DNA of 64,000 bases from a virus. Each line of letters begins with the position of its first letter. Position 1 is the stretch's first letter. The stretch covers positions 16,092 to 80,091 of the IMG/VR virus record IMGVR_UViG_3300005327_000002, one strand, 5' to 3'. The notes beneath the pieces are model-generated. The model was not told the origin of the DNA and made no database searches. It saw only the letters and a list, made by a program, of their open reading frames with translations. This document shows positions 1 to 48,881 of this stretch, piece after piece. Made by a program: the position numbers and the translations under genes.

Positions 1-2
1 TG

Positions 3-2000: not shown

Positions 2001-2768
2001 CTAGTCCAGCAGCTCCGCCTCCATCGCGGGGCCCAGCTGCGCCCGGCCGCTGGCGGCGTCCAGGCGGACGGCGGAGGCCTGGACGACGGGCAGCGGGGGC
2101 AGGCGCTCCGTGGAGGTGGGAACCCAGCCCTCCAGGGAGCGGACCGCGCACTTCAGCCACATCTGGTCCTCCCAGCGCTGCCACGGGGACTTCGGGTTCT
2201 GCCAGCCCGCCGACATGGCGCGGCGCTTGTGTACGTCCCGCTTGTTGAGCACCACGACGCGGGACAGGCCGCCGGAGGCCAGCTGGGCGTAGGCGTAGAC
2301 CTTGACCAGCTCCCCGGGGTCGTCGTCCCCGTCGTAGGGGGTGTGGTCCGGGACGGCGCCCAGGGCGGGCTTGTAGCTGAACCGGTCGCGGGCGTGGACC
2401 ACCTCCGCGATCACGGCCAGCACGGCGCCGGAGTTGAAGATCCGGGAGACGATGCCCTTCCAGGACTCCGACCCGCGCACCTCCGACCCCTGGGGGATCA
2501 GGTAGAAGCGGTCCGTCCCGGGTTCGTGGCCCAGCCGGGCGGCCTCCATCAGCGCGGAGGCGAAGCTGACCGGGTTGCGGGCGGCGCACGCGGCCAGGTC
2601 CTCATTGCGGCGCAGCAGGCCCTGGGCCAGGCGCATCCACGTCTCCGGCCGGACGTGGGTGGGCAGGACGCTGGCGAAGTCGTCGGCGTAGGTGGTGATC
2701 ATCTGGGAGGCCGGGTTCTCCCGGCGGGCCAGGGCGCCGCCCACGCTGCGGTCGGGGCTGGTGGTCAT
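2001..2768 (-). CDS. recT: RecT-family single-strand DNA annealing protein
   Basis: A 255-residue protein with RecT family features. These are an N-terminal helical part (WMRLAQGLLRRNEDLAACAARNPVSFASALMEAARLGHEPG), the YLIPQG strand, WKGIVSRIFNSGAV, and the C-terminal KSPWQRWEDQMWLKCAVRSL helix. Length is normal for the family. RecT proteins bind single-stranded DNA made by a partner exonuclease and anneal complementary strands during phage recombination. The ATG overlaps the last four bases of the exonuclease gene, so the pair forms a classical exonuclease/annealing operon. The ERF protein at 17016-18059 is a second, unrelated annealing protein in the same window. Confidence 0.92.
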   Translation of the reverse strand: MTTSPDRSVGGALARRENPASQMITTYADDFASVLPTHVRPETWMRLAQGLLRRNEDLAACAARNPVSFASALMEAARLGHEPGTDRFYLIPQGSEVRGSESWKGIVSRIFNSGAVLAVIAEVVHARDRFSYKPALGAVPDHTPYDGDDDPGELVKVYAYAQLASGGLSRVVVLNKRDVHKRRAMSAGWQNPKSPWQRWEDQMWLKCAVRSLEGWVPTSTERLPPLPVVQASAVRLDAASGRAQLGPAMEAELLD

Positions 2769-3850
2769 GCCGGGCACTCCTTCGTGGGGCTGGTGGCGTG
2801 GCGCTGCAGGTGGTGGCCGGGCATCAGGGCCCGGGTGCGGCCGGTGCTGGCGCTGATCTGGCGGTAGGCGATGGTGTCGGTGCCGACCTTGGCGCGGCGG
2901 CCGCCGCCGATGCACAGCAGCACCTGGGAGCGGCGCAGGTTGGCCTCCTCCTCCGCGCGGGCGGAGCCGTTGACGGCGTCGGCGTAGGCGCGGGCCAGGT
3001 CGGGGTCCAGCTGGACGTCCTGCTCCGCGTCCGGGTCGGCGCCGGGCAGCAGCTCCTTCACGGCGTTCAGGGTGGCGCTGTGGCCGTCCAGGGGCGGCGG
3101 GGTGCCGTCCTGGAGGGACTGCACGAAGTCCTGCCCGGCGCGGCGCATCAGCTCCAGGTCCTCCTGGTCGGCCTCCACGCTGTAGTGGCGCAGGGTGTGG
3201 CCGGACATCAGGACGGCGATACGAGCGCGCTGAAGGCCCAGGATGTCCAGGTACCACAGCACCTGGCAGCGGTAGTAGACGGGGATCTGGTCGGTGCCCT
3301 CCTCCCCCCAGTCCTCCGACCGGTCGGACAGCTTGATCTCCAGCACCTCCCGGCGGCGGGCCAGGGTGGGGCAGGTGGGGCAGTGCTCGCAGCAGGGCCC
3401 GCAGTCGTCCGGGTCGCAGCAGGCGCGGGTGCACGACGGGCACGGGGAGCCCGGCGGGCACAGGCAGGAGCGGGCGCGGTGCAGGCCGCAGTCGCAGGCC
3501 GGGATCAGGATGCGGTCGGGGGAGCCGATCTGCCACGGGCGCTTCGGGTGGGCGCGCAGGGGGACGGGGAGCATCTGCCACTGGGGGTGCAGCTGGGCGT
3601 AGCGGTCGGCCACCACGGGTTCGATCAGGCGGCCCCACATCATGCGCTCGGAGTCCTCCTGGCCCAGGGAGCGCAGCGGGGGCAGGTCGTGGCCGGGCGG
3701 GACGGCCAGGATCGCGCGCTTCTTGTGCCACAGGGAGAAGGCCGACTCCCAGGGGGACAGGCCCAGGACGGCCGCGATCTCGGAGCCGCCGAGTCCGGCG
3801 GCGCGGGCGCGGTGCCAGTCGGGTGTGCCGTGCAGGGGTGCTGTCTTCAT
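2765..3850 (-). CDS. YqaJ / lambda-type recombination exonuclease with Cys-rich insertion
   Basis: A 361-residue PD-(D/E)XK nuclease. Visible motifs are WHRARAAGLGGSEIAAVLGLSP (residues 12-33), IGSPD with the metal-binding Asp at 112, VLEIKLS with Glu171 and Lys173, and YYRCQVLWYL with Gln196. This family degrades one strand of double-stranded DNA from its ends and works with RecT, encoded immediately downstream with a 4-bp overlap. Between the Asp and the ExK pair, residues 119-160 hold 13 cysteines in CxC, CxxC and CC pairs. I do not know such an insertion in lambda exonuclease, and it may bind zinc or an iron-sulfur cluster. The ATG follows a leaderless-type -10, so the pair may be transcribed apart from the capsid genes upstream. 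Confidence 0.88.
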   Translation of the reverse strand: MKTAPLHGTPDWHRARAAGLGGSEIAAVLGLSPWESAFSLWHKKRAILAVPPGHDLPPLRSLGQEDSERMMWGRLIEPVVADRYAQLHPQWQMLPVPLRAHPKRPWQIGSPDRILIPACDCGLHRARSCLCPPGSPCPSCTRACCDPDDCGPCCEHCPTCPTLARRREVLEIKLSDRSEDWGEEGTDQIPVYYRCQVLWYLDILGLQRARIAVLMSGHTLRHYSVEADQEDLELMRRAGQDFVQSLQDGTPPPLDGHSATLNAVKELLPGADPDAEQDVQLDPDLARAYADAVNGSARAEEEANLRRSQVLLCIGGGRRAKVGTDTIAYRQISASTGRTRALMPGHHLQRHATSPTKECPA

Positions 3851-7635: not shown

Positions 7636-9807
7636 TCACTTCTTCGTGGACCGGGTGGAGACGGCGGCGCTGGCGGCCAGCCCGGCCGCCGCCGACGTCT
7701 TGCCCGTCTTCAGGACCGGGGAGGACTTGCCCCCGGGGCCCACGGCCACGAACTCCACTTCGTAGGTGGTGTCCGCGTCCAGTCCGGTGAAGGTGTGGCT
7801 GGTCGAGCTGGCGCCCTTGGCGGTCACCGCCGACCAGGTCCCGGTGGAGGCCGGGGTCCGGTACCGCAGTTCGTAGCCGGTGATGTCTCCTCCGGTGGCG
7901 GGGGCGTCCCAGGTGGCCGTCAGGCTGGAGGATGTCGGGGTCCCGACGGCCGCAGACTCGGGGGAGGCGGGCGCCTCCGCCGCCGGAGCGGTGGGCGGGG
8001 GCCCGTAGCAGGGCCCCGGGTTCAGCGGGTACTCCGCGAAGCCGCCGGAGACGCCGCCCGGGCAGAACGGCACCTTGAAGGCCGCGATGGGCCCGCAGCG
8101 GTAGGCCACGCAGTACATGTCCTCCGCGAACAGGCGGATCTCCCGGTTCTGGGACAGGAGCGCCTTGTCGTGCACCATCTCGATCTGGACGGACGGGCCG
8201 TTGATCGCCACGAAGGCGCCCGCCTTGTACATCATGAACTCGAAGCTGGTCGGCCAGGCGGTGACCGCCCCGGCGGCGCCGATCGCGTCGTCCTGCCAGT
8301 CCCACACGAACTGGGCGCGGATGCCCCGGGAGAGCAGGTACCGCTGCAGGTCGGCGTCGGTGATGTCGTAGCGGGAGCGGTCCCAGCCGCCCTTCTTCGA
8401 CAGGTCGGCGCGCATGATCCCCAGCGCGAAGCGCGGGAAGACGGCCTCCAGGGTCGTGTTCAGCGCCAGGCGGCGGCGGGTGCGGATGTGCTCCGCCTGC
8501 AGCTCCACGAAGGAGAGCAGCGACTCGAACGCGCCCGGGCCGTGGGTGGCCCAGTCGGTCGCACCGGCGCCGGTGGTCATGTCGGTGTACGCGCCGCTGG
8601 TCGCCTTGATCTTGTTGTAGACGGCCCGGATGCGCTTGGCGTTCAGGGACCGCTGGTGGGCGATCATCAGTTCCGCGATGGCCCGCTGAACCTGGGACGG
8701 GTCGATGCGGGCCTGCAGGATGCCGGTCTCCAGGCACAGGGAGCAGGCGGTGAGGCGGCACTCGTCCCAGCCGTCGGGGCAGGGGATGGAGACGCACGGC
8801 TTGTTGACGGCCACCGGCGGGTCGTCGGTGGTCATCATGTCTTCGGTGAAGCAGTACGACCGGTAGAGCGCGCTGTAATCCGTGTTGTGCGGCCACATGA
8901 CGCCGCCACGGGTGGTGACCATCGTCGGGAGGTCCAGCATCGCGTCCAGGCTGCCCTCAATCGGGCACAGCTCCGTGCGGATCTCCATGGGCCCGCACCA
9001 GGCCCAGCCGACGGTGGCGGCGGTGAGCGCGTTCATCTGCGCGGTGGGCAGCACGCTGGAGGCCGACAGGCCCGGCACCGAGTTCATGCGCTTCAGGAGC
9101 GCGGCGGCCAGGGAGCCGCCGGGCATGGAGAACTCGTCGGCGGCCGCGTCCATGCGGTGCCAGTCGCGCATCTCGTCCGCGATCAGGTGCGTCTCCGGGA
9201 CCTGGCGCTGCAGGGAGACGACCGGGACCTGCCGACCGGCGCCGGAGCGGGCCAGGGTCCGGGAGCGGGAGATGACAGCGGCGGTCAGGTCCGTCATGGA
9301 CCCGATGGTCTGGCCGGAGAAGAAGCCCGGCAGGTCGCTGGAGGCGACCATCTGAATGGCCTCCCGGCGCACCACCGGCAGGCTGGCGCCCTGGTGGCTG
9401 ACCACGGTGCCGGTGTGCACGGAGCCGCCGGAGGCCGCCACGGTGCCGGAGCCGCCGGTGCCGTCGGACAGGACCTTCGTGGAGGCGATGCGCTCCGCCA
9501 GCTTGGCGGCGTGCTCCGCGCGGGCGGCCTTCTCCCGCTGCTCCTCGATCGCCTCCACCCGGACGGAGATCGCGTCGGAGATGTCCGCCAGAAGGGCGAA
9601 CTCCACCAGCGCCTCCGGCGTGATGTCGGAGGCCTCCGGGTTCACGTTGCGGGCCTTCTCCGTGACGGCGGCGGTCACGGCCGTCAGGTCCACGGCGGAG
9701 TTGGACAGGATCTCCGCCAACAGGAGCTTGCGGGCGTCGGCCTGGTCTTCGGGGCCCAGGTCCCCGTCTACGTCACGGAGTTGCGTGAGGATGTCGTCCA
9801 GAGTCAC
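7636..9807 (-). CDS. Major capsid protein with N-terminal helical delta-like region and C-terminal FnIII-like domain
   Basis: A 723-residue protein starting at GTG after AAGGGGGG. Residues 1-115 are helical and charged (VEAIEEQREKAARAEHAAKLAERIA), like a scaffolding or delta domain that is cleaved during maturation. The central part (residues about 150-610) has the look of an HK97-type capsid subunit encoded in actinophages (SLNAKRIRAVYNKIKA, FVELQAEHIRTRRRLALNTTLEAVFPRFALGIMRADL, FEFMMYKAGAFVAINGP, IRLFAEDMYCVAYRCGPIAAFKVPF). The last 90 residues form a fibronectin type III-like module (SLTATWDAP ... ITGYELRYRT ... TFTGLDADTTYEVEFVAVG), probably displayed on the capsid surface. The protease for maturation would be the MuF-protease fusion at 12182. 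Confidence 0.85.
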   Translation of the reverse strand: MTLDDILTQLRDVDGDLGPEDQADARKLLLAEILSNSAVDLTAVTAAVTEKARNVNPEASDITPEALVEFALLADISDAISVRVEAIEEQREKAARAEHAAKLAERIASTKVLSDGTGGSGTVAASGGSVHTGTVVSHQGASLPVVRREAIQMVASSDLPGFFSGQTIGSMTDLTAAVISRSRTLARSGAGRQVPVVSLQRQVPETHLIADEMRDWHRMDAAADEFSMPGGSLAAALLKRMNSVPGLSASSVLPTAQMNALTAATVGWAWCGPMEIRTELCPIEGSLDAMLDLPTMVTTRGGVMWPHNTDYSALYRSYCFTEDMMTTDDPPVAVNKPCVSIPCPDGWDECRLTACSLCLETGILQARIDPSQVQRAIAELMIAHQRSLNAKRIRAVYNKIKATSGAYTDMTTGAGATDWATHGPGAFESLLSFVELQAEHIRTRRRLALNTTLEAVFPRFALGIMRADLSKKGGWDRSRYDITDADLQRYLLSRGIRAQFVWDWQDDAIGAAGAVTAWPTSFEFMMYKAGAFVAINGPSVQIEMVHDKALLSQNREIRLFAEDMYCVAYRCGPIAAFKVPFCPGGVSGGFAEYPLNPGPCYGPPPTAPAAEAPASPESAAVGTPTSSSLTATWDAPATGGDITGYELRYRTPASTGTWSAVTAKGASSTSHTFTGLDADTTYEVEFVAVGPGGKSSPVLKTGKTSAAAGLAASAAVSTRSTKK

Positions 9808-12181: not shown

Positions 12182-14839
12182 ATGGCGAAGGAGATCGTCC
12201 TGGAGCCCGTCGGGGAGGACGACCTGACGGAGGCCTTCACGGCGGCGCTGGAGCAGTGGCTGGCCATCGCGCGCGGGGACAAGGCGGCGCCGGTGGTGCG
12301 CTCCTCCTTCGCGGCCAGCGCGAAGATCCAGCAGCGCACGGTGCGCCGGTGGCTGGACCACGGGTCGCTGACGGCGGCGGTGTCGTGGCCCACCGCGCGG
12401 ATCTGGCGGGCCCTGGTGGACGACCACGTCCTGCCGGTGTCCGACCGCCTGTACCGGGCGGCGGCCAGCACCGTGGACGGGACGCTGCTGCAGACGTTCC
12501 TCACCGGGGTGCGCTGGCGGCTGACGGAGGTGTCCACGCTGCTGGACGACATCAAGGCCGCCTACCGCCAGCACGGGGAGGCGGCCCTGGACATCGACTG
12601 GGGCGGCGCCGACGGCACGTCCCTGCCGTGGCGCAGCCGGGCGTCCCTGACCGGCCAGAACGAATCCCAGGTCACCGGCATGCAGGCCGGGGTGGATTCC
12701 GCCCCAGTGGGGGCCATGAAGCGCTGGGTGACCCGGGGTGACGACAAGGTCCGGGCCACCCACGTCAAGGCCGGGCGCTCCGACCCGGTCCCCGTCGGCC
12801 AGCCGTTCAGGGTCGGCGGCCACGACCTCCAGTACCCGGGGGACCCGGCCGGTCCGGCCTCCGAGACGATGCGGTGCCGCTGCCACGCCGTACTGGTGCC
12901 GCCCGCGCCCACCGCACCACCGAGAGAGAGCAGGAAAGCCGCCATGACGGTGGACCACATCACGGCGGCCGTGTCCGCCGACCTGAAGGCGCCGTTCGCG
13001 CCCCGGGACACCTCCTGGGACTCCCAGGCCGCCAAGGACGCGCTGCGCACCTGGGCGACCACGGACGGGACCCTGGACGAAGACAAGCTGGCGCAGGGGT
13101 ACCTGTGGCGCTCCGACGGCCCGCCGTCGGACTGGTCGCTGCCCGTGGCCACCGTCCGCGACGGCCAGCTGCAGCTGGTCTGGGACGGCGTCACGGCGGC
13201 GGCCGCAGCCGCGCAGGGCGCCCGCACCCCGCTGGCCCTCCCGGCCGCCGACGTCGACCGGATCAAGGCCGCCATCAGCACGCTCTACAAGCGCGCCGGG
13301 CAGGAGTTCGGGGACGACTCCCTGGAGGCCCCCTGGGACCGGCAGACCGCCGCCCTGGGTCCGGGCCTGGACGTCGTCATGGCCGCGCTGCGCACCGCGC
13401 CGGGCCTGGAGCTGGACCTGCTGGCCGCCGCGCAGGCGCGCCTGGAGCAGGACCGCCGCTCCGAGCTGGCGCAGCAGGAGCGGGCACTGATCGCCTCCGC
13501 GCTGGGGGACGCGATCAAGGCCGCGCCGGAGTGGACGCCCCCGGCGGCGTGGTTCCTCGCCCCGGACGGTTCCCAGAAGGAACTCATCTCCCCGGAGGGC
13601 CGGGTGGCGGGGTACGTCGCCACGTGGCTGGACGACCAGGGCAATCCGACCTGCCACACCGGCTACGCCTCCCAGGGGTACTGCGAACCGGTCCCGCGCG
13701 GGGGCGACTACTCGTACTTCCACCAGGCGAACGTGGTCCTGACCCTGGACGACGGAACCCAGGTGCACCCCGGCCTGCTGACCACCGACATCGGGCACGG
13801 CTCCCCGGCCGCGCAGTCCGTGGACGCCCAGGCCGCGCACTATGACAACCCGCTGGCCATCGCGGCCGCCGTGGTCGTCGGGGAGGACGAGAAAGGCATC
13901 TGGATGGCGGGGTCCGTCCTGCCGGACGTCCTGCAGGACGCGGACCGGCTGCGGCGCCTGCGCCTGGCCTCCGTCTCCGGGCACTGGGCGCCGACGATGC
14001 CCGGCGGCCCCATGGACATGATCGCGGTGACGGCCGTCAACCACCCCGGCTTCGCCCAGCGCAGCCGGGGGCGCTACGCCCTGGCCGCGTCGCTGGCGGC
14101 CGCGCTGCAGGGCGACGACCAGAAGTACGCCACCGCGCTGCTGGACGTCCTGGAGCAGGCCCTGGTGCTGTCCTCCAACTACCTGGAGTCGGGCGCCGGT
14201 GCGGCCTCCGGCATGGCGGAGCTGGCGGCGGAGGTGCTGGAGAACGTCGGGGAGGCCGTGGCCACCCTGCAGGAGTGGACCAGCGGCGCCTCCCCGGAGG
14301 GCGACGCGCCGCCGGAGGACATGGCGGCGTCCGGCCGCACGCTGCGCGCCCAGGCCAAGGCCCAGATCCGGGTCCTGGCCACGCTCCTGGACCAGCTGAC
14401 CGACCCGCAGGAGCAGCTGGCGCCGGTGATCCCGCTGCAGGCCGGTGGCGACGGCTGCGGCTGTTCCGGGGCGGCTCCCGAAGGCGCTCCGGCGTCGGAG
14501 CCGGTGGCGGCCTCCGGCGGCGCGCTGGCGGCGCTGCCCGACGGCCTGGAGCCGGAGCTGGTGGCCGCCGCCCGCGCGGCCCTGGCGGAGCTGGCGGACG
14601 CCAAGGCCCTGAAGGCGGCGTCCGTCCCGGACCAGGTGACGCTGCCGAAGTGCCTGCAGATCCTGTCCGACTACCTGTCCGAGACCGGCGCGGACTCCCC
14701 GCAGCAGTCCCGGGCGGCGGCGGTGAAGGCGGCGGAGTCCATCTGCCGCAGCGGTGAAGTGATCGACGCGGCGCTGCGGGCCAAGGCCTGCCGCCTGCTC
14801 TCCGAGTACCGGGTGAAGTCCGGTGGAAAGGCGGCCTGA
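12182..14839 (+). CDS. MuF-like head morphogenesis protein fused to capsid maturation protease
   Basis: An 885-residue fusion, the common actinophage arrangement. The first 255 residues end with the MuF/SPP1 gp7 signature: WVTRGDDKVRATHVKAGR, VPVGQPFRVGGHDLQYPGDP and CRCHAVLV. The middle (residues about 440-640) is a prohead-protease-like region with VAGYVATW, CHTGYASQGYC, an aspartate-rich HQANVVLTLDDGTQVHPGLLTTDIGHG, LRLASVSGHWAP and AVTAVNHPGFAQ; the Ser in ASVSGHW is a candidate nucleophile. The C-terminal 230 residues are helical with a Cys turn (GCGCSG), perhaps acting as scaffold. It would be packaged into proheads and mature the capsid protein of 7636-9807. Confidence 0.82.
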   Translation: MAKEIVLEPVGEDDLTEAFTAALEQWLAIARGDKAAPVVRSSFAASAKIQQRTVRRWLDHGSLTAAVSWPTARIWRALVDDHVLPVSDRLYRAAASTVDGTLLQTFLTGVRWRLTEVSTLLDDIKAAYRQHGEAALDIDWGGADGTSLPWRSRASLTGQNESQVTGMQAGVDSAPVGAMKRWVTRGDDKVRATHVKAGRSDPVPVGQPFRVGGHDLQYPGDPAGPASETMRCRCHAVLVPPAPTAPPRESRKAAMTVDHITAAVSADLKAPFAPRDTSWDSQAAKDALRTWATTDGTLDEDKLAQGYLWRSDGPPSDWSLPVATVRDGQLQLVWDGVTAAAAAAQGARTPLALPAADVDRIKAAISTLYKRAGQEFGDDSLEAPWDRQTAALGPGLDVVMAALRTAPGLELDLLAAAQARLEQDRRSELAQQERALIASALGDAIKAAPEWTPPAAWFLAPDGSQKELISPEGRVAGYVATWLDDQGNPTCHTGYASQGYCEPVPRGGDYSYFHQANVVLTLDDGTQVHPGLLTTDIGHGSPAAQSVDAQAAHYDNPLAIAAAVVVGEDEKGIWMAGSVLPDVLQDADRLRRLRLASVSGHWAPTMPGGPMDMIAVTAVNHPGFAQRSRGRYALAASLAAALQGDDQKYATALLDVLEQALVLSSNYLESGAGAASGMAELAAEVLENVGEAVATLQEWTSGASPEGDAPPEDMAASGRTLRAQAKAQIRVLATLLDQLTDPQEQLAPVIPLQAGGDGCGCSGAAPEGAPASEPVAASGGALAALPDGLEPELVAAARAALAELADAKALKAASVPDQVTLPKCLQILSDYLSETGADSPQQSRAAAVKAAESICRSGEVIDAALRAKACRLLSEYRVKSGGKAA

Positions 14840-14840
14840 C

Positions 14841-15074
14841 ATGGCTGGTTCGTGCTGCGGAGGAGGCGCTGCGGCGCCCCGTCCGGCGGTGTCCGTCCCG
14901 GGCGGCGGCTCCGGCCCGCTGGTGACGCGCCACGGCGTGCTGGAGTGGGTGCACATCTCGGCGGGCGGCGCGGAGTCGTTCTACGCCAGCGCGGCGGAGG
15001 TGGACTCCGCCATTGAGCTGTTCGGCGGGAGCAAGGACCACCGGCCCGCCCCCGGGTCGAAGCCGACCGCGTGA
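14841..15074 (+). CDS. Small protein with DUF-like fold, unknown function
   Basis: A 77-residue protein whose ATG follows the upstream stop after one base (TGACATG), so it is part of the portal operon. It begins with a Cys/Gly-rich segment (AGSCCGGGAAAPRP) and continues RHGVLEWVHISAGGAESFYASAAEVDSAIELFGGSKDHRP. The second half could bind a partner through a beta hairpin and one helix. Its Cys-rich start resembles the N-termini of the tail proteins at 29606, 31605 and 33590, which suggests but does not prove that it is a virion component. Confidence 0.6.
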   Translation: MAGSCCGGGAAAPRPAVSVPGGGSGPLVTRHGVLEWVHISAGGAESFYASAAEVDSAIELFGGSKDHRPAPGSKPTA

Positions 15075-15109
15075 CGGGGCGCCAGCGGTAGCATGCCGCC
15101 AGCAACCCG

Positions 15110-15140
15110 GGCCCCCGGCCGCGATCAGCGGCCGGGGGCC
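15110..15140. terminator. 13-bp hairpin between operon genes, possibly in a 5' leader
   Basis: GGCCCCCGGCCGC / GCGGCCGGGGGCC with the five-base loop GATCA. A -10-like TAGCAT at 15089-15094 lies upstream, so this hairpin could be either the terminator of the portal operon or a leader structure of the next gene at 15168. Confidence 0.6.
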
Positions 15141-15167
15141 TCCCACGTTCGGCAGCAGGAGAAGCAC

Positions 15168-15695
15168 ATGGACGACCGGCCGGAGAACCTGGTGCACAAG
15201 CTGATGGACCACGTGGCCGTCCAGGCCGTCGGCGACGCCATGCCGCTGGTGGGCCAGCCCGCCACCCAGGAGGGGAAGCTGGACTGGGACAACCCAAGCG
15301 CGGTCTACCTGCAGCTGGACACCCAGGTCCGCATGATGCGCGACCTGACCCGCATCCCCGGGGAGAAGCTGGCCGACCCGGACTACCGGCTGCGCACCCA
15401 GGCCGCCCTGCAGTGCCTGGGTGCCGGGTACCTGCTGCTGCTGTCCGTCGACTCCGAACCGGGCTCCGCCGCCCTGGCGTCCGGCGGCACCGTGGGCGAC
15501 CTGACCGCGCTGCACGGCCTGCGCTACCGCAACCTGGCACGGACGCTCCTGGACCACGAAGTGGAGTGCCCGGGCCACGCGGAGCCCAGCGGCCTGCGGG
15601 TGGCGGTGGACCTGCACGTGGAGAACGTGCCCGGCGGTGCTCCGTCCGGGGGAGTCCCGGGCCGGACGGACGGCGCGGACGGCGGCTCCCGGTAG
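15168..15695 (+). CDS. Conserved helical protein of unknown function
   Basis: A 175-residue protein; the ATG has AGGAG eight bases upstream and longer in-frame starts would run through the hairpin. It is mostly helical (ENLVHKLMDHVAVQAVGDAMPLV, YLQLDTQVRMMRDLTRIPGEKLADPDYRLRTQAALQCLGAGYLLLLSVD) with one late strand (GLRVAVDLHVENVPGG). Nothing matches a family that I know. The stop TAG is also the first half of a -10-like TAGGGT, and a terminator hairpin follows. It ends the + strand head block. Confidence 0.65.
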   Translation: MDDRPENLVHKLMDHVAVQAVGDAMPLVGQPATQEGKLDWDNPSAVYLQLDTQVRMMRDLTRIPGEKLADPDYRLRTQAALQCLGAGYLLLLSVDSEPGSAALASGGTVGDLTALHGLRYRNLARTLLDHEVECPGHAEPSGLRVAVDLHVENVPGGAPSGGVPGRTDGADGGSR

Positions 15696-15721
15696 GGTCG
15701 GCACCGACGCACCACGCGGCG

Positions 15722-15755
15722 AAGGCCCGCCCCGACGGACATGGGGGCGGGCCTT
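15722..15755. terminator. Bidirectional terminator hairpin
   Basis: AAGGCCCGCCCC / GGGGCGGGCCTT, 12-bp stem, between convergent genes ending at 15695 and 15769. Confidence 0.8.
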
Positions 15756-15768
15756 CGTCGTGCGGGCG

Positions 15769-16095
15769 CTACAGGGACTGGACGACCAGGTGTCCGGCGC
15801 GGTGCAGCAGGGCCAGGTGGTGGCGCAGCTGGTCCTTGTGCTCGCTGGGCGGGCCGTCCGGGTGGGTGCAGCCGGTGCAGCCGAAGCGCGCCCCGGCGGG
15901 CACCCAGAACTCCAGCAGGTCGGCGTGCTGGCGGGCCAGGTGGGCCGTCAGCCGCTCGAAGGCCGACAGGGCGCCCTGGTCGGGACGGCCCGGACCGGCC
16001 AGCCGGGGCGGGTACTCCAGGCGCAGCAGGAGGGCGGCGTGGCCCTTCTCGCACTCCTCGCAGCCCTGCGCCCAGCGGACCGGAGCGGCGCTCAC
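15769..16095 (-). CDS. Small Cys/His protein, possible zinc binding
   Basis: A 108-residue protein starting at GTG in a GTGA overlap with the stop of 16092-16616. It has CEECEKGH near residue 12 and FGCTGCTHPDG near residue 75, two CxxC-type pairs that could form one zinc site. Between them is a helical segment (FERLTAHLARQHADLLEFW) and after them DQLRHHLALLHRAGH. No family is recognised. It is the last gene of a small minus-strand operon before the terminator at 15722-15755. Confidence 0.6.
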   Translation of the reverse strand: MSAAPVRWAQGCEECEKGHAALLLRLEYPPRLAGPGRPDQGALSAFERLTAHLARQHADLLEFWVPAGARFGCTGCTHPDGPPSEHKDQLRHHLALLHRAGHLVVQSL

Positions 16096-16616
16096 CGGAC
16101 GGCCTCCGCCCGGGCCAGCCGGACGTGGGCGACGTCGTCCACCATGTCGAACTCCAGCGTGCCGTCCTCCCGCCAGACGTCCACCTGGTGGTTGAAGGCG
16201 ATCATGTGGACGCCTCCCTGGACCTCCATCACCCAGTGCTCCAGGTCCTGCACGGTGGTGAAGCCCCGGGGGTCGGCGTCCGGGAAGTCGGGGTCCTCCG
16301 GCTGGTCGAAGTACGCCCGGATGACCTTCTGCGCCTGGGCCACCTCCTGCCCCTTCTCCAGGGAGAACAGCTGCAGGGCCCGGGTGATCTCGGCGCCGGG
16401 CTCCAGCAGGAAGCCCCAGAAGTCCTCCACGGCGCTGGTCGGGCGCAGGACCCTGCCGCCAGTGCTGCCGGGCTGGGGCGCGATCCACACGCGGTGGGTG
16501 GTGTCGACGTAGGCGACGGGGTGGGAGCTGTATTCGCTCCATCCGCCCTGCCGGTGGGGGTTGACGACGACGAAGCGCCAGTCCGGCATGAGGATGGCGG
16601 GGGTGGGCTGGGTCAT
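16092..16616 (-). CDS. Conserved alpha/beta protein of unknown function
   Basis: A 174-residue protein; GGAAGGATC lies just upstream of its ATG. It begins with a strand-rich part (WRFVVVNPHRQGGWSEYSSHPVAYVDTTHRVWIAP) and continues with an acidic helical middle and a second strand-rich part (HWVMEVQGGVHMIAFNHQVDVWREDGTLEFDMVDDVAHVRL). The layout suggests a small beta-sandwich or a protein-binding module. It is coupled to the next gene by a GTGA overlap. I do not recognise the family. Confidence 0.6.
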   Translation of the reverse strand: MTQPTPAILMPDWRFVVVNPHRQGGWSEYSSHPVAYVDTTHRVWIAPQPGSTGGRVLRPTSAVEDFWGFLLEPGAEITRALQLFSLEKGQEVAQAQKVIRAYFDQPEDPDFPDADPRGFTTVQDLEHWVMEVQGGVHMIAFNHQVDVWREDGTLEFDMVDDVAHVRLARAEAVR

Positions 16617-16674
16617 GTCGGTGATCCTTCCGGTTCGATCGGTCGAAGTGCTGTAGTCGGTTGGTGACAGCGTG

Positions 16675-16944
16675 TCAGGCGGTGGGGGTGTCGTCGGCGG
16701 GCTTGGCGAACTCCGCCGTGTAGCGGGCCAGCCACCAGCCCAGGAACTCCACGGCCTTGTTCCGGGCCGCCTGCTCCGTCTGGAAGCGCTGCTGGGCCAG
16801 GCGCAGGGCGGCGCGGCCGGGCAGCTTGCAGTCCAGGACGTACATTCCGCCGGGGTCGCGGGTGGTGGCGTAGCCGACGGTGAACATCTCGGTGGTGCCG
16901 AGCGTCCCCACGGTCGTGTTGCGGGTCTTCGTCCAGGCGAGCAT
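16675..16944 (-). CDS. Small protein of unknown function
   Basis: An 89-residue protein; the ATG of MLAWTKTRN is chosen because AGAGGG lies just upstream. It has a strand (VGTLGTTEMFTVGYAT), MYVLDCKLPGRAALRLAQQRFQTEQAARNKAVEFLGWWLARYTAEFA (one long amphipathic helix) and an acidic tail. A short strand pair then helix could be a small nucleic-acid or protein-binding unit, but no family is recognised. It lies between the ERF annealing gene and the 16092-16616 gene, in the same orientation. Confidence 0.6.
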   Translation of the reverse strand: MLAWTKTRNTTVGTLGTTEMFTVGYATTRDPGGMYVLDCKLPGRAALRLAQQRFQTEQAARNKAVEFLGWWLARYTAEFAKPADDTPTA

Positions 16945-17015: not shown

Positions 17016-18059
17016 TCAGTCGCTGCCGGGCGGCCAGGGCTTGGACCAGCCCCACGCCGACGGGTCGTCCCCCAGGCAGTCCGGGCAGGAGCCGCAGTCG
17101 TTGCAGGACTCGTACGGGAGCGGGGTGCGGTCGCCGTACTTCGACGCCGCCGGGTCGGCGCCCGGGTGGGCGTGCTCCGGGTGGACCAGCTTCGACGGGT
17201 CGCGGCGCTCCGGCTGCGGCCGGGCCGGGGCCTGGGCGCGTCCGGCGGCGGGCAGCTGCTGGCGGGACGGGGCATTCAGCGCGGCCAGCGCGGTGCGCAG
17301 CTGATGCTCCGTGGCGTCGTTCGGGTTGTGGCCGTAGGTCCGGGTGTACTGGTCCACCAGCTGCTCCCGGGACCAGCCCAGGGCGTGGGCGGCGTCCTTC
17401 AGCTGGCGCGCGGCCTGGGACCGTCCGGACGGCTGCTGCCCGGAGGGCTGGCGGCCCTGCTGCGGGCGCTGGCCCTGGCGCTGGCCTCCACGGTCCGGGC
17501 GCTGCCCCCGGGGCTGCTGGCGGCCGCGCTGCGCCCCGCCGTCGGCCATCTCCTGGCGGCCGCGCTCCATCATCCGGGCCTCATGCTCCGCCTTGTGGCG
17601 GTCGGGGGTGTCGGAGTCCCCGTCGGCCAGGCCGTCCACCGGGATGTGGAACAACGCGGTGAGCATGTACTTCAGGGCGGCGGTCTCCGCCTTCATGGTG
17701 GCCTTGTCCGCGACGTCCCCGCCCTCACCCCAGTACGCGGCGGTGAAGGTGGAGCCGTCGGGGCCCACCAGGGTGTACTCCACCCGGACGGCCACGTAGT
17801 TCTGGCGGCCGCGCTGCTCGGAGACGCGCTCACCGGCCACGGGGATGATGACCAGCTGGTGCTGGACCAGGGCCCGGTTGAAGGCCGCCAGCACGTCCTC
17901 AATGGACCTGTAGGAGTAGCTGCTGTGGTCGTTCCAGCCGGACTTGCCGATGCCCACCGTGCCGATGGTGTGCATCACGTCCAGGACGGCCTGGTGGACG
18001 GTGCGGGGCGCCGCCCCCCGGGAGGGGGCGGCGGTCGTGATGACTGCTTCGACGGTCAC
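17016..18059 (-). CDS. erf: ERF-family single-strand DNA annealing protein
   Basis: A 347-residue protein. Residues 20-145 match the ERF family: VHQAVLDVMHTIGTVG, SSYSYRSIEDVLAAFNRALVQHQLVIIPV (the YxYR-xxDxxxxxNxAL motif) and KATMKAETAALKYMLTALFHIP. Residues 175-215 are a Gln/Arg/Gly-rich disordered linker. Residues 216-265 are helical (KDAAHALGWSREQLVDQYTRTYG), and the C-terminus has CNDCGSCPDCLG. ERF proteins form rings that anneal single strands during recombination or circularisation. The GTG start lies in a GTGA overlap with the upstream WYL-like gene. A RecT protein is also present at 2001-2768, which is unusual. Confidence 0.88.
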   Translation of the reverse strand: MTVEAVITTAAPSRGAAPRTVHQAVLDVMHTIGTVGIGKSGWNDHSSYSYRSIEDVLAAFNRALVQHQLVIIPVAGERVSEQRGRQNYVAVRVEYTLVGPDGSTFTAAYWGEGGDVADKATMKAETAALKYMLTALFHIPVDGLADGDSDTPDRHKAEHEARMMERGRQEMADGGAQRGRQQPRGQRPDRGGQRQGQRPQQGRQPSGQQPSGRSQAARQLKDAAHALGWSREQLVDQYTRTYGHNPNDATEHQLRTALAALNAPSRQQLPAAGRAQAPARPQPERRDPSKLVHPEHAHPGADPAASKYGDRTPLPYESCNDCGSCPDCLGDDPSAWGWSKPWPPGSD

Positions 18060-24107: not shown

Positions 24108-24123
24108 GTGCGCGGTTGCGCAC
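24108..24123. promoter_or_regulatory. Short inverted repeat upstream of the replication initiator
   Basis: GTGCGC GGTT GCGCAC, a 6-4-6 inverted repeat 40 bp before the ATG at 24164. It could be an operator or a leader hairpin of the initiator gene. No clear -10/-35 pair is seen around it. Confidence 0.35.
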
Positions 24124-24163: not shown

Positions 24164-25276
24164 ATGTCCTTCACCGCCATCACCTGGGCCCTGGAAGACG
24201 CCCCCGTGGCCGACACCGTGGAGCGGGCCATCCTGGTCAAGCTGGCCAGCCACGCCGACCACGACGGTCGGGCCGCCTTCCCGTCGAAGAAGACCATGGC
24301 CCGCGTGGCCCTGTGCGACCCGAAGACCGTCCAGCGCAAGCTGGCCGCGATGGTCCGCCGGGGGCTGATCGCCCTGGGCGACCAGGAGGCCGCCCGCATG
24401 ATCCCGAAGCACCTTCGCCCCACGGTCTACGACCTCCTGATTCCGGCGGCCTGGTACGGGCCGGAGCAGCTGGAGCGCGTCAACCGGGACCGGGTCTACG
24501 TCGGCCTGCCGCCGCTGGACGCTCTGGACCGCCCCGGCCTGGCCCCCGCCCCGGAGCGCGCGAAGCGGTCGGACGCCGGGGTGCCCCGCCCGCGCCGGGA
24601 CGCCCAGGAGACCGGGGACGGAGTTGTCCACAGGGGGGACTCACAGTCCCCCCACCCGGGGACTGTGAGTCCCCCCACCCGGGGACTGACAGTCCCCCAA
24701 ACCAGTACTAGTAACCAGTCCAGTGAACCTGTCCCTCCGTCTCCCGCCCGCAGGGCGGCAGGTGCGGGTAGTGGGCGCGCGGGCGCGGGGCGGCCCGCTT
24801 CGCGGGGAGATGGGGAGGCAGCGACCGGAGCGACCGAAGGCCTGGTGATCCACGACCGCCCCGACGGGGCCGTGGCGGCCGTCCTGGAGGCCGTGCCCGG
24901 CATCGTGCGGGCGCTGACCCCCGGACAGCTGCGCCTGGCCTCCAGGGCCGTCCTGGGCGTCCTCCAGGGGCCCTTCCAGGACCCGGCCGCCCTGGCCGCC
25001 CACCTGGAGGCCCGGCTGGCGCCCATGTCGCTGACCGACGACTGCGACCCCCGGGCGTTCATCCGCGACCCCTACGCCTGGCTGATCTCCCAGCTGCCGG
25101 ACATCACCGTGTGCCAGGGCGGCTGCGGGCGCACCGTCCACGCCACGGCCGGGCGCAGCGGGCTGCGGTGCGCTTACTGCTCGGACGGCGTCGACCCGGC
25201 CCGGGCGCTGGCGGAGCTGGCGCGGGAGAACGCGGCCGTACTCGGCGACGGGTGCCCTCCGCCGGACTGGGCGTGA
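24164..25276 (+). CDS. HTH replication initiator-like protein with internal candidate origin
   Basis: A 370-residue protein with GTAGGAG upstream of its ATG. Residues 20-75 are a winged-helix of the phage HTH_36 type (RAILVKLASHADHDGRAAFPSKKTMARVALCDPKTVQRKLAAMVRRGLI), the module often found in phage initiators. Residues 120-225 form a low-complexity linker whose DNA carries a DnaA box and three 23-bp iterons. Residues 230-320 are helical (LEAVPGIVRALTPGQLRLASRAVLGVLQGPF, then HLEARLAPMSLTDDCDPRAFIRDPYAWLISQLPDI). The C-terminus has a zinc-ribbon (VCQGGCGRTVHA, LRCAYCSDG). By analogy with lambda O, the protein probably binds the repeats within its own gene and loads the replication ATPase. 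Confidence 0.7.
   Translation: MSFTAITWALEDAPVADTVERAILVKLASHADHDGRAAFPSKKTMARVALCDPKTVQRKLAAMVRRGLIALGDQEAARMIPKHLRPTVYDLLIPAAWYGPEQLERVNRDRVYVGLPPLDALDRPGLAPAPERAKRSDAGVPRPRRDAQETGDGVVHRGDSQSPHPGTVSPPTRGLTVPQTSTSNQSSEPVPPSPARRAAGAGSGRAGAGRPASRGDGEAATGATEGLVIHDRPDGAVAAVLEAVPGIVRALTPGQLRLASRAVLGVLQGPFQDPAALAAHLEARLAPMSLTDDCDPRAFIRDPYAWLISQLPDITVCQGGCGRTVHATAGRSGLRCAYCSDGVDPARALAELARENAAVLGDGCPPPDWA
24624..24697. other. Candidate replication origin: DnaA box and three iterons
   Basis: TTGTCCACA at 24624-24632 is the Streptomyces DnaA-box consensus. It is followed by three palindromes GGGGACT-NNN-AGTCCCC centred at 24643, 24666 and 24689, exactly 23 bp apart, with CCCACCC between them. A relatively AT-richer stretch (AAACCAGTACTAGTAACCAG) follows. 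All lie within the linker-coding part of the initiator gene, an arrangement known from lambda-type origins. Confidence 0.65.
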
Positions 25277-25527: not shown

Positions 25528-27270
25528 CTACGGCGCGGGCGGGATGTACACCGCGCCGACGGCCAGCCGGGCCGTCAGCTTCGGGACGTCCCCGGCCTGG
25601 CCGCTGCTCTGGGCCATCACCCGCAGCTGCGTGCCGCCGGGAATCCGGGCGCTGCGGGACATGAACAGCTGCAGCGGGTTGCGGCCCTTGCCGATGGTGG
25701 CGCTGATCTCCTGCTGGTCGGTGTCGACGGTCTCCGTCCCGTCGCCCCAGCGCAGCCACACCCGCAGCGTCGCCCAGTAGGGCTCCTGGGCGGTGCTGGC
25801 CAGCAGCAGGCGCCCGGCGATCGTCCACAGTCCGGTGGAGGCCGGGGTGAGCGTGCCGTCCGCGCCGACCGCCAGGCCCTCCGGGGGCTGCTCCGGCACC
25901 AGCAGGAGCTGCACGGCGGTGCCGGAGGGGAGCGACTGCGCGGCCGCGTCCAGGAGGGCGCCTGCGGACTGCGCGGCCGGTCCGGGCGCCCCGGTGTCGC
26001 CCTTCGGCCCGGGGTCGCCCTGGTCGCCCTGCGGGCCCCGCAGGTTGGCCAGCTTCACCCAGTCGGTGCCGCGCTTGACGTAGAAGTCGCCGGTGAGCTG
26101 GTCCGTGTACAGGTCCCCGTCGGCACCCAGGTCCGGGGCGGGGACACCGGCGGCGCCGTAGACCGCAGGGGTGCGGCCGTCGCGGCCGTCGGCGCCCGGG
26201 GCCCCGTCGGCGCCCTTGTCGGCGGCCAGCTCCCAGGGCGACTGCGGGGGCTCCGTCCCGGCGGGCACCTCCTGGGCGGTGGAGTACGACCGGCCGCCGT
26301 GCCCCACGACGGAGTCCGGCGGGTACGTCACGGAGTCGACCCACTCCCCGGCCCAGGTCAGGCCGCCGCCGGTGGAGCCGCCGTCCATCGTGGCCAGCAG
26401 CAGCCACTGGCCGTCCGTGCCCGGGGTGCTGACCGCGTGGTCCTCCACCGCGCCCCACAGGCGGCGGCTGAAGGTCACCACGGTGCCGCGCCGGTAGTAG
26501 TCGCCGGGCACCCAGGCCCCGGCCAGCAGCATCCAGGTGTCCGTGCCGCCGTTGGGCAGCTGCGGGTCCGGGGTGCGCGGCGCCAGGCCCTGGGCGGGCA
26601 CCAGGAGGGCCGCGCCGGGGGTGCCTTCACGGACCTGCAGGCGCGACAGCAGCGCACCGCCGGAGACCTTCACCGTGGTGTCGGACTCCCGGCCGAAGGT
26701 CTGGCACCACAGCTCGAACTGCTCGCCCACGTCCATGGGGACGTCGAAGGCGATCGGCTGGGCGATCTTCTGGCCGCCGCCGATCAGGCCGGAGCCGCGC
26801 ACCGGCAGGGACGTGACGCTCTGCCCGCCCCGCGTCCACGACAGCCACAGCTCCACGTCCATGGTGTAGGCCGTCGGGGAGTCGGAGGTGAGGACCAGGC
26901 CGCCGATCCAGGACCAGGACGCGGCCGTGTCGGAGGAAACCCGGCCGTCGGCCACCGTGATGCCCTCCGCGTCGCCCACCTCCAGGAGCAGCGGCAGCCG
27001 GGCCGGGCCGACGGGCGCCAGCTGCTCCTGGACGGACAGCTCCCCGCCCTCCGGCAGGGTGCTCCCGGCCGGGCTGAACAGCTGCCAGGGCGGCTGCGGC
27101 GGGGCGGCCGCGCCCGGGCTGGCGGTGGCGATGAACACGCCGTCGGGGGTGGAGACCAGGTCGCCCCGGCGGTAGCAGCCACCGGGCTGGAAGTCGCCCC
27201 GGTAGGAGTCGATCACGGAGCCCGGCGGACCCACCACGCCGTAGCCGCCGCACTGTGTGGGGTGCGTCAT
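25528..27270 (-). CDS. Tail fibre-like minor tail protein with carbohydrate-binding and collagen-like segments
   Basis: A 580-residue protein. Three short modules of the chitin/carbohydrate-binding (CBM5/12-like) type occur: YRGDFQPGGCYRRGDLVSTPDGVFIA near residue 22, WVPGDYYRRGTVVTF near 255, and WAGEWVDSVTYPPDSVVGHGGRSYSTAQ near 305. Gly-X-Y triplets (about 355-425) form collagen-like stretches that trimerise fibres. The C-terminal 150 residues (strands with WTIAGRLLLAS, ATLRVWLRWGDG, LQLFMSRSARIPGGTQLRVMAQ) look like a fibre head and resemble residues 95-230 of the same protein, suggesting a duplicated beta-sandwich. It likely binds the host surface. The ATG is six bases after GATACT, a leaderless-type start. 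Confidence 0.72.
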   Translation of the reverse strand: MTHPTQCGGYGVVGPPGSVIDSYRGDFQPGGCYRRGDLVSTPDGVFIATASPGAAAPPQPPWQLFSPAGSTLPEGGELSVQEQLAPVGPARLPLLLEVGDAEGITVADGRVSSDTAASWSWIGGLVLTSDSPTAYTMDVELWLSWTRGGQSVTSLPVRGSGLIGGGQKIAQPIAFDVPMDVGEQFELWCQTFGRESDTTVKVSGGALLSRLQVREGTPGAALLVPAQGLAPRTPDPQLPNGGTDTWMLLAGAWVPGDYYRRGTVVTFSRRLWGAVEDHAVSTPGTDGQWLLLATMDGGSTGGGLTWAGEWVDSVTYPPDSVVGHGGRSYSTAQEVPAGTEPPQSPWELAADKGADGAPGADGRDGRTPAVYGAAGVPAPDLGADGDLYTDQLTGDFYVKRGTDWVKLANLRGPQGDQGDPGPKGDTGAPGPAAQSAGALLDAAAQSLPSGTAVQLLLVPEQPPEGLAVGADGTLTPASTGLWTIAGRLLLASTAQEPYWATLRVWLRWGDGTETVDTDQQEISATIGKGRNPLQLFMSRSARIPGGTQLRVMAQSSGQAGDVPKLTARLAVGAVYIPPAP

Positions 27271-46982: not shown

Positions 46983-47291
46983 GATCCCCAGGGTGCGGCC
47001 CGTACGTCCCGGGCCCGGGTGTTCGAGCGCCGTCCGGCGTGTCCCTACCCGCCCTTCGGTCGCGTCCCTAGTCCCTAGTCCCTAGCGCCCGCGCTCACTC
47101 TTCCGAACCGTTGACACCTCTCTGACCTGCTGTTACGCGCGATAACACACACAGCTGATGTCCGTTTTGTACACATTTATATAGTGGAGAGCGAGCGCGC
47201 CAGTCCCTAGAACTAGGGACTAGGGACACCCTGCTGCGGGCACGCGAAAGGCCCCCCGGGCTGCTCGCCGGGGGGCCCTTTGTTCGAACGG
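46983..47291. other. AT-rich repeat island without genes
   Basis: This 309-bp gap contains three tandem GTCCCTA units (47064-47084), an inverted repeat TGTTA-N7-TAACA (47131-47147), an AT-rich run (TTTTGTACACATTTATATAG, 47164-47183), a perfect 20-bp palindrome AGTCCCTAGAACTAGGGACT (47202-47221) with one extra CTAGGGAC unit (to 47227), and the terminator at 47247-47281. A TTGACA at 47111-47116 lies 17 bp before TACGCG. It could be a promoter hub, partition site, secondary origin or packaging site. Confidence 0.6.
47247..47281. terminator. Terminator after the replication ATPase gene
   Basis: AAAGGCCCCCCGG / CCGGGGGGCC(C)TTT with one bulged base, located ten bases beyond the stop of the minus-strand gene at 47292. 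A TTT follows on the + side. Confidence 0.75.
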
Positions 47292-48881
47292 TCAGGCGCG
47301 GCCGCGCATGAGCACGCCGCCCTCCAGGACCAGCAGCCCGGAGTTGACCGCGTACTCCAGGACGCGGGCCTTCGACCAGCCCGGCGCGTGCCGGTCAAGC
47401 TGGCGCTTCGTCAGGTAGTTCTGGTTCGCCTTCGTCTTCGTCAGGCCGCCCTGGTCGGCCACCTCCGCCAGCTTCTCCACCAGCTTGGCCACGTACGGCG
47501 GGACCGCCATCTCCACCAGCTGCAGCTGCCGGGACTGCGCGGCCCGCGCGATGTACCGGGAGTCCTCCTCCAGGCGCCGCTGGCGGGCGTCCTCCAGCGC
47601 GGCCCGGTGGTAGGTGTCCCGGGCGTCCGCGTGCGCGTCCCACAACATCCTGGTGCGCCGCCAGACCTCCGGGTCCGGGTGGACGGAGCCGCACAGCAGG
47701 TTCAGCACGTGGTACATGGTGATCATCTGCCGGGGCCGGTGGACGTCCAGGTCCGACTCCAGCCCCTTGCCGGTGGCCTGGTCCAGCAGCTTGGCCACGT
47801 CCACCACCGCGTTGCTCGGCAGCTCCATGGTGCGGTCCGGCAGGGCGGACACCCACTGGCCCAGCGGCTGGCCGGTGGCGACCTTCAGCGACTCCACCGG
47901 CGCCTGGGCGGAGCGGTCCGTCAGGGCGGCCACCACGGCCTCCAGCTCCGCCTCCCCCAGCTCCTGCCCGTACTGGACACCGGCCAGCGCCGGGTCCTCC
48001 TCCTGCTCTCGGATCGCGTTGAAGACCAGGAAACGCTGCACCAAGCCCTGCCCGGCGGTCTCGTACAGCGTCTGCAGGCGCGCGGGCTGGCCGCCGGTGA
48101 CGACCGCCAGCCGGTAGGAGTCGGCGTCCACCTTGCGCTTGCGCGTCAGGTCGGCGTTCGGTGTCTCGTACCCGTGGCCCTGCAGCATGGAGGACAGCAC
48201 CGCACCGATGGTGTTGTTCGGCCGGTCGATCTGCGCCAGCAGCGCCTGGATCTCGTCCTGGTAGGCGAGCACCCGGGAGGCGAGCATCACGCGCTCCGGC
48301 GGCCCCTCCACCGTCTCCCCGTCGTCGCCCTCCCGCTTCGCGCCCTTGCGGTACATGCAGAACTGGTCCAGCAGGCCCTCCCCGGTGGAGACGCCCGCCA
48401 TCTCCACCAGGTCCTCCCGGCCGTCGGCGTTGAAGACCAGCGGGGTGGGCAGCAGCAGGGACGCCGTCCGGTACCCGAGCGACTTGCCCATGCCGGGGGG
48501 CGCCGCCAGGATCGTGCCGCCGTTCAGGGTGCCGTTCGGCATGCCGGGCACGGACCCGGCCCGCAGCCCCACCGGCGCCATGGCCTGCACGCGCGCCATC
48601 ACGGAGCCCAGCACCGCCTCCGGCGACTGGTACCGCGCCCGGGCCACGTCCCGGATGGTGCGCAGCGTGGCGTGGCCCCAGAAGGCCTCCGGCAGGCGGC
48701 CGCAGCCGCGCAGCATGTCCAGGGTGGAGGCGGTGTACTCCTCCGGCTCCTGGTCCCACTCGATTTCGGGGACCGCCTCCAGGTGGCTGGCCTGGCGCTG
48801 GCGGCCCAGGGCCACCACCTCCGCCACCGCTTCGCGCGCTTCCCGCAGGTCGTCCGCTTCGGTGAATCGCTTCGCTCCCAC
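47292..48881 (-). CDS. P-loop replication ATPase (DUF3987-like)
   Basis: A 529-residue protein, GTG start with GGGAGAGAG upstream. Residues 121-140 hold a Walker A (ILAAPPGMGKSLG) and residues 202-212 a Walker B-like VLAYQDEIQ. The N-terminal 100 residues are helical. The region 235-300 (LTRKRKVDADSYRLAVVTGGQPARLQTLYETAGQGLVQRFLVFNAI) has the 'G(L/F)(x)RF' ending characteristic of DUF3987 and phage primase-helicase type ATPases. The C-terminus is wHTH-like (YLTKRQLDRHAPGWSKARVLEYAVNSGLLVLEGG). It acts with the Prim-Pol encoded just upstream, a pairing typical of phages and plasmids. Its role is inferred as helicase or loader. Confidence 0.72.
   Translation of the reverse strand: MGAKRFTEADDLREAREAVAEVVALGRQRQASHLEAVPEIEWDQEPEEYTASTLDMLRGCGRLPEAFWGHATLRTIRDVARARYQSPEAVLGSVMARVQAMAPVGLRAGSVPGMPNGTLNGGTILAAPPGMGKSLGYRTASLLLPTPLVFNADGREDLVEMAGVSTGEGLLDQFCMYRKGAKREGDDGETVEGPPERVMLASRVLAYQDEIQALLAQIDRPNNTIGAVLSSMLQGHGYETPNADLTRKRKVDADSYRLAVVTGGQPARLQTLYETAGQGLVQRFLVFNAIREQEEDPALAGVQYGQELGEAELEAVVAALTDRSAQAPVESLKVATGQPLGQWVSALPDRTMELPSNAVVDVAKLLDQATGKGLESDLDVHRPRQMITMYHVLNLLCGSVHPDPEVWRRTRMLWDAHADARDTYHRAALEDARQRRLEEDSRYIARAAQSRQLQLVEMAVPPYVAKLVEKLAEVADQGGLTKTKANQNYLTKRQLDRHAPGWSKARVLEYAVNSGLLVLEGGVLMRGRA

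Follow-up and report, generated by a model that had tools for sequence, protein, structure and literature searches.

The interval 24624–24738, which lies inside the coding region of an HTH_36 replication initiator gene, is very probably a theta-type replication origin that serves this same initiator. It was analyzed as part of a 64,000-nucleotide stretch (hereafter, the window; G000:C1:16092-80091) of an 80,091-bp virus record from an actinobacterial phage, and the best reading of its sequence is an in-gene iteron origin with DnaA assistance that would work like lambda ori/O and pSK41 RepA. The elements on which this reading rests, all on the + strand and numbered by window position, are as follows.

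24164–25276, +: HTH_36 replication initiator gene, 370 aa (PF13730, E = 6.9e-10; PHROG_1032, E = 2.3e-17)
24221–24370, +: winged-helix DNA-binding domain, aa 20–69 matched by HTH_36 (Pfam and AlphaFold)
24320–24361, +: recognition helix, aa 53–66, a helix in the AlphaFold model (K54 codon at 24323–24325)
24623–24862, +: linker predicted to be unstructured, aa 154–233, carrying the putative origin elements (pLDDT and rare codons)
24624–24632, +: DnaA box TTGTCCACA, with 2 bp between it and the GGGGACT core of iteron 1, whose G-run it touches (TTGTCCACA-GGGGGGACT)
24635–24651, +: iteron 1, GGGGACTCACAGTCCCC, GGGGACT-N3-AGTCCCC, centre 24643
24658–24674, +: iteron 2, GGGGACTGTGAGTCCCC, GGGGACT-N3-AGTCCCC, centre 24666
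24681–24697, +: iteron 3, GGGGACTGACAGTCCCC, GGGGACT-N3-AGTCCCC, centre 24689
24700–24738, +: unwinding-element-like tract of three 13-mers, AACCAGTACTAGT / AACCAGTCCAGTG / AACCTGTCCCTCC (periodicity, GC content, and low duplex stability)
25112–25180, +: C-terminal cysteine motif CQGGC..CAYC, Zn-ribbon-like (from sequence only; low-confidence model)

In the Pfam scan, the HTH_36 domain of the initiator scored above the curated cut-off (39 bits vs. 25), and the PHROG family matched by the 370-aa protein is annotated as 'replication initiation protein'. AlphaFold modelled aa 1–147 with a mean pLDDT of 94, and nearly all linker residues (154–233) had a pLDDT <50. This low pLDDT indicates that the array encodes an unstructured linker, as an earlier reading made from the sequence alone had proposed for an HTH_36-type initiator, and that the protein tolerates such sequence. 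The DnaA box, the three palindromes with their centres and 23-bp spacing, and the AT-richer stretch (from 24698) were also found where the sequence-only reading had placed them. When folds were compared, the initiator retrieved only generic winged helices (similar to MarR and CRP), none at E ≤ 0.001, and deposited chains named 'initiator' or 'Rep-DNA' occurred only among these. The C-terminal cysteine motif is possibly the partner-binding part of the protein, and C-termini rich in cysteine recur among its homologues. A perfect palindrome, GTGCGC-GGTT-GCGCAC, is located ~40 bp upstream of the initiator start codon (24108–24123) and is a possible operator.

All three palindromes of the array are perfect, with spacings of 23 and 23 bp, and the 64-kb window has no other array of three 7-3-7 palindromes. 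Outside the array, no further copy of GGGGACT-N3-AGTCCC occurs in 80 kb, and when up to two mismatches were allowed, four palindrome matches were found in 64 kb (0.81 expected), of which the array accounts for the three exact ones. One exact palindrome used as a query in viral contigs returned 113 uninformative stretches. Due to the 23-bp period, the three iterons are read in three frames (GDSQSP, GTVSPP, and GLTVPQ). The linker is crowded with codons of ~1% usage (TCA, ACT, AGT, ACA, CAA, GTT, CCT, and TCT) that run on through the 13-mers. Log relative codon use averages −0.22 over the gene's first 450 nt, compared to −1.50 in the array and −1.72 across the 13-mers. Among 200,000 synonymous recodings of this stretch of the window, none (0/200,000) gave three palindromes with the same arms. 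The use of three frames, the forced rare codons, and the recoding result therefore demonstrate that selection acts on the DNA, a constraint that is observed directly.

Two explanations that place selection on the gene products were weighed against this result. Many homologue linkers read GDSQSP, GGTxSP, or GGLxVP, as would be expected if a repeated GDSQSP-like peptide had been selected in the protein and happened to yield DNA repeats; however, one DNA repeat yields all of these peptides when read in its three frames, neither period (22 or 23 bp) is divisible by 3, and the frame in which a given array slot is translated changes between homologues. Combined with the synonymous null and the predicted disorder of the linker, this makes protein-level selection exceedingly improbable. 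Hardly more credible is the idea that the palindromes are RNA hairpins in the initiator mRNA that control pausing or decay. The RNA does fold strongly (z = −6.1), but perfect iterons make up just 39 of the 138 tabulated, their arms drift without compensation (mostly at the outer base), the repeats are non-palindromic in several homologues, and hairpins leave the DnaA boxes and 13-mers unexplained. We rejected both explanations on the basis of the recoding null and the uncompensated arm drift.

Homologues of the initiator were drawn from plasmids, species genomes, and viral contigs; in the last of these, relatives were found with alignment queries and none with a single-protein scan. A search for arrays in homologous genes, which the sequence-only reading had named as a check, returned 3–5 iterons in the same linker at every one of the 37 other tabulated loci (plasmids, genomes, and phages), mostly 22–24 bp apart (22, 23, and 24 bp in 49, 15, and 6 cases, respectively, the window included). 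The usual layout consists of three iterons at 22–24 bp and a distal copy, most often 46–50 bp upstream. For three loci (L122, L142, and L156), automatic iteron registration failed and the iterons were established separately. In full-length homologues, the iterons are kept within the gene even where the repeat sequence, the reading frame, and the rest of the linker differ. Homologues with the same protein linker and no repeat in the DNA, named beforehand as the case that would count against the array, were looked for, and there were none among the full-length proteins; an array is missing only from L136 and L137, truncated genes of 115 and 105 codons, respectively, that have no linker. More remote homologues also carry repeats inside the gene, including five copies, mostly at 22 bp, in Pseudomonas phage JBD68, repeats at 22 bp in Gordonia phage DatBoi and Arthrobacter phage Eesa, four copies at 34, 22, and 23 bp in Thermobispora (L164), repeats at 39–66 bp in Kineococcus, and short, less regular repeats in Arthrobacter phage KHumphrey and Gordonia phage Soos.

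The association was also examined in the reverse direction, with the array pattern (GGGGACTNNNAGTCC-N5..9-GGGGACTNNNAG) as the sole query against viral contigs. All 13 contigs with this pattern have the array inside an HTH_36 gene, and in 12 of them the gene at the array is an HTH_36 homologue by tblastn. The thirteenth (L167) is an AT-rich phage outside the homologue set, in which the array begins ~380 nt into a gene with an HTH_36 match (3.3e-9). Conservation of the whole layout and the two-way association between gene and array are thus direct observations. With respect to gene neighborhood, the gene that follows the initiator is dnaB in L122 and L130, and the context includes a gene for an AAA+ loader-like protein (IstB/DnaC class) in JBD68 and dnaN in L164. 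In several plasmid records (L115, L118; NZ_CP130721.1, NC_013449.1, and others), the initiator is absent from the gene table or the match goes under a different name, for example that of an HNH endonuclease gene that overlaps the initiator start. At L120 4209-5480, on a linear plasmid of Streptomyces globisporus, a tyrosyl-tRNA synthetase gene comes after the initiator, on the opposite strand.

The tract at 24700–24738 looks like a DNA unwinding element in its composition, periodicity, and stability. Averaged over loci, GC content just after the last iteron is 0.51 and then 0.60 in two 20-bp bins, compared to 0.70–0.74 further out. The 13-bp periodicity of the tract in the window is significant (p = 0.002), and a periodicity of 10–16 bp reaches p < 0.05 in 21 of 37 loci, where about two are expected. 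At the same place, Thermobispora (L164) has three 12-mers (GAACCGTCCTAT/GAACCGTCCTAT/GAACCGTCCAAC). In duplex stability, the 40 bp from 24697 rank among the seven weakest sites in the 64 kb, with ~0.1% of windows being less stable.

The DnaA box of the window, TTGTCCACA, is a listed high-affinity box of S. coelicolor (PMC4285127) and has just one exact occurrence in all 80,091 bp of the record. Because single boxes with one mismatch are not enriched across the window (6 found vs. 6.3 expected), the weight of the DnaA evidence comes only from the homologues. There, nine TTNTCCACA sites are found in 8 of 45 linkers (12 kb; 0.033 sites expected), compared to one in 370 kb of surrounding sequence, the window included. 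The linkers with a box are that of the window and 7 of the 44 others, and the exact TTNTCCACA is absent from 37/45. Not only does the box recur, a direct observation, but GGG follows 8 of the 9 linker boxes and 7 of 9 abut the G-run of an iteron arm, in either orientation. The junction TTRTCCACA-GGGGGGACT is present in the window, L120, L121, and L144, and TTTTCCACA or TTCTCCACA-GGGGTGACT in L152 and L153. We considered whether the box could be a degenerate fourth iteron (GGGGAC at 24614 and GTCC at 24626, with the register off by one base); because the same TTRTCCACA-GGGGGGACT junction exists in L120, L121, and L144, a genuine box is more likely. The suggestion of the sequence-only reading that host DnaA is used jointly gains from this concentration of boxes in linkers as a recurrent composite site, even though most homologues have no exact box, and we regard joint DnaA use at the putative in-gene origin as more than suggestive. 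The presence of a box in 8 of 45 linkers implies that help from DnaA is optional or often provided through weaker boxes.

To relate the iterons to the protein, we ranked all columns of the N-terminal domain by how they vary with the half-site, after allowing for overall protein distance. The top column was position 54 (r = 0.64), which is residue two of the recognition helix; the next column reached 0.43. K54 goes with GG at arm positions 3–4 in 28 of 28 loci of the covariation set, and all 13 reverse-test loci, seven of them new and six already in that set, have K at the equivalent position. R54 goes with GGTG (4/4, plus six remote loci with half-sites read by eye), E54 with GGGA or GGGC (4/4), Q54 with GGGGT, and S54 with GGGT. 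On the tree, residue 54 requires 8 changes and the half-site 7, and the rule is represented by 2–3 well-supported independent pairs; the informative pairs are all concordant and too few for a significant sign test. CAP is a weak match in the profile search (E about 0.8–1), and by inspection K54 aligns with CAP E181. This counterpart, Glu181 in CAP numbering, is a known specificity residue. The variation of residue 54 with the half-site is an observation, and the rule that would connect it to iteron recognition is a strong lead, not proof.

Taken as an origin, the array suggests a mechanism in which the winged helix at the N-terminus of the HTH_36 protein would bind the palindromic iterons, probably as dimers, one per 22–24 bp (about two helix turns), and so form a nucleoprotein complex. 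Host DnaA at the box abutting the iteron would assist, and the neighboring AT-richer 13-mers would melt to allow helicase entry. The binding, the melting, and the dependence on DnaA, together with replication direction and life-cycle stage, are what we infer in this model. The origin would be placed in the linker between the DNA-binding and C-terminal parts and would move with the gene. With the site in the linker, the amino acid sequence of the linker would be largely free, and protein and site could change specificity together. An alternative is that the palindromes are operators for transcription of the initiator itself and not an origin. Initiators often autoregulate, and a dimeric winged-helix protein of generic fold suits palindromic sites; however, the palindromes are located 470–530 bp inside the gene, away from the promoter, the 13-mer tract and DnaA boxes would have no role, and the same layout is an origin in lambda O and pSK41 rep (PMC7466680, PMC5703833). 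We therefore consider autoregulation very unlikely.

The comparison with lambda, already drawn in the sequence-only reading, agrees in anatomy: iterons and an AT-rich tract lie in the middle of gene O, between its N-terminal DNA-binding and C-terminal parts (PMC7466680). The initiator also weakly matches O-like PHROGs (phrog_8540, 2.6e-6; phrog_391, 3e-5). Unlike lambda, the phage studied here has GC-rich 7-3-7 iterons at 22–24 bp and 13-mers, with DnaA boxes that abut iterons in part of the family, and lacks an adjacent P-like loader gene; the gene that follows (25528–27270) runs on the other strand and does not look related, whereas the relative JBD68 does have a helicase-loader-like gene as neighbor. 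Judged by anatomy, pSK41 RepA is the closer match. In pSK41, four Rep boxes are central in rep and bound by the N-terminal winged helix, the C-terminal domain is separate, and the linker encoded by the ori is dispensable (PMC5703833). Both systems have repeat boxes inside the initiator gene, although the Pfam scan gave no match of our initiator to PF06970 (RepA_N). In staphylococcal plasmids, DnaA boxes were not detected according to a review (PMC5703833), whereas they recur in the HTH_36 linkers described here. The Staphylococcus plasmid pPR9 has a phage-derived N-terminal domain of the same Pfam family (HTH_36, pfam13730), its rep region replicates autonomously, and a single block of ~500 bp, comprising the N-terminal domain and the origin, was exchanged (PMC5703833); it differs in being a Firmicute plasmid with an otherwise pSK41-like C-terminus. 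The Streptomyces theta plasmids pFP1, pFP11, and pWTY27 have a Rep that binds iterons and replicate bidirectionally, but in pWTY27 the iterons are in non-coding sequence beside repAB (PMC3583192). For mycobacteriophage RepA, an in-gene origin was suggested and repeats were not found (PMC7157519).

GC skew, a check proposed in the sequence-only reading, did not provide the expected switch at 24.7 kb (overall, third-position skew of the + strand is positive on the left of the site and negative on its right) and does not support initiation there. Major head, tail, portal, terminase, and tape-measure proteins are encoded in the record, as are DNA polymerase A, a Prim-Pol, a DUF3987 protein, and an integrase-like gene product. 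The polymerase, Prim-Pol, and DUF3987 genes count against the in-gene origin, as does the second AT-rich repeat element described below. The major head protein (7636–9807) has a C-terminal fibronectin type III domain, likely a surface decoration, and two single-strand annealing systems (2001–3850 and 17016–18059) comprise RecT with a RecE-like YqaJ nuclease and a separate Erf-like protein. An 884-aa ORF that extends into window positions 1–701 (record 14138–16792; L159:239-2893) resembles an FtsK/TraB-type translocase by its motifs, with no confirmation from Pfam, and a GntR-family regulator lies further left (L158:7998-8672). Translocase and GntR are the kinds of genes that accompany rep homologues in plasmids, many of which are preceded by GntR genes. 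ParA (PF01656) was not found in the 80,091-bp record. We infer from this gene content that the record probably represents a phage-plasmid, equipped with plasmid-transfer genes, in the manner of pZL12. If so, the in-gene origin would serve at least the plasmid state, and lytic replication may start elsewhere.

One candidate for such a second site is at 47.06–47.23 kb, where lytic synthesis could begin in the manner of a P4-type primase-helicase while the array acts as a plasmid-type origin. Six CTAGGGAC copies, the only ones in 80 kb, are located at 47,064–47,227, on either side of the 40 bp with the lowest stability in the window (at 47143); a DUF3987/primase-like protein (47292–48827) and a Prim-Pol (PF09250; 49289–50797) are encoded nearby, and the record as a whole is phage-plasmid-like, with its FtsK/TraB-like translocase and GntR regulator. 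However, the 47-kb repeats are intergenic with promoter-like sequence and could simply be operators. The AT-rich repeat element is possibly a lytic origin or an operator region, and we give this division of labor between two origins serious weight, at somewhat less than an even chance.

The layout of the probable in-gene iteron origin resembles those known from lambda O and pSK41 and is common to dozens of related plasmids and phages. Against the literature consulted, what appears new is the breadth of the actinobacterial HTH_36 cassette, the DnaA-box/iteron composite, the 13-mers, and the residue-54 relation, although priority is uncertain: no literature was found on pSQ10, and an earlier report of in-gene iterons in pZL12, Streptomyces linear plasmids, or pSQ10 is possible. 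We tentatively propose, at somewhat less than even odds, a widespread one-gene replicon cassette with its origin inside, in which residue 54 would largely set specificity in step with the iterons, and in which some lineages would have fused a DnaA box to an iteron arm in a fixed geometry so that a single composite site is bound by host DnaA and the phage or plasmid initiator together. With a box joined to an iteron, the use of host DnaA becomes directly testable. Compatibility groups can be predicted from sequence through the residue-54/iteron relation, which also supplies a natural series for studies of initiator and origin co-evolution. The ~1.1 kb minimal replicon could be cloned as a vector. 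For many actinobacterial plasmids (linear and circular) and phages, whose initiators are annotated only as 'helix-turn-helix domain-containing' or 'hypothetical', the array provides a concrete candidate origin.
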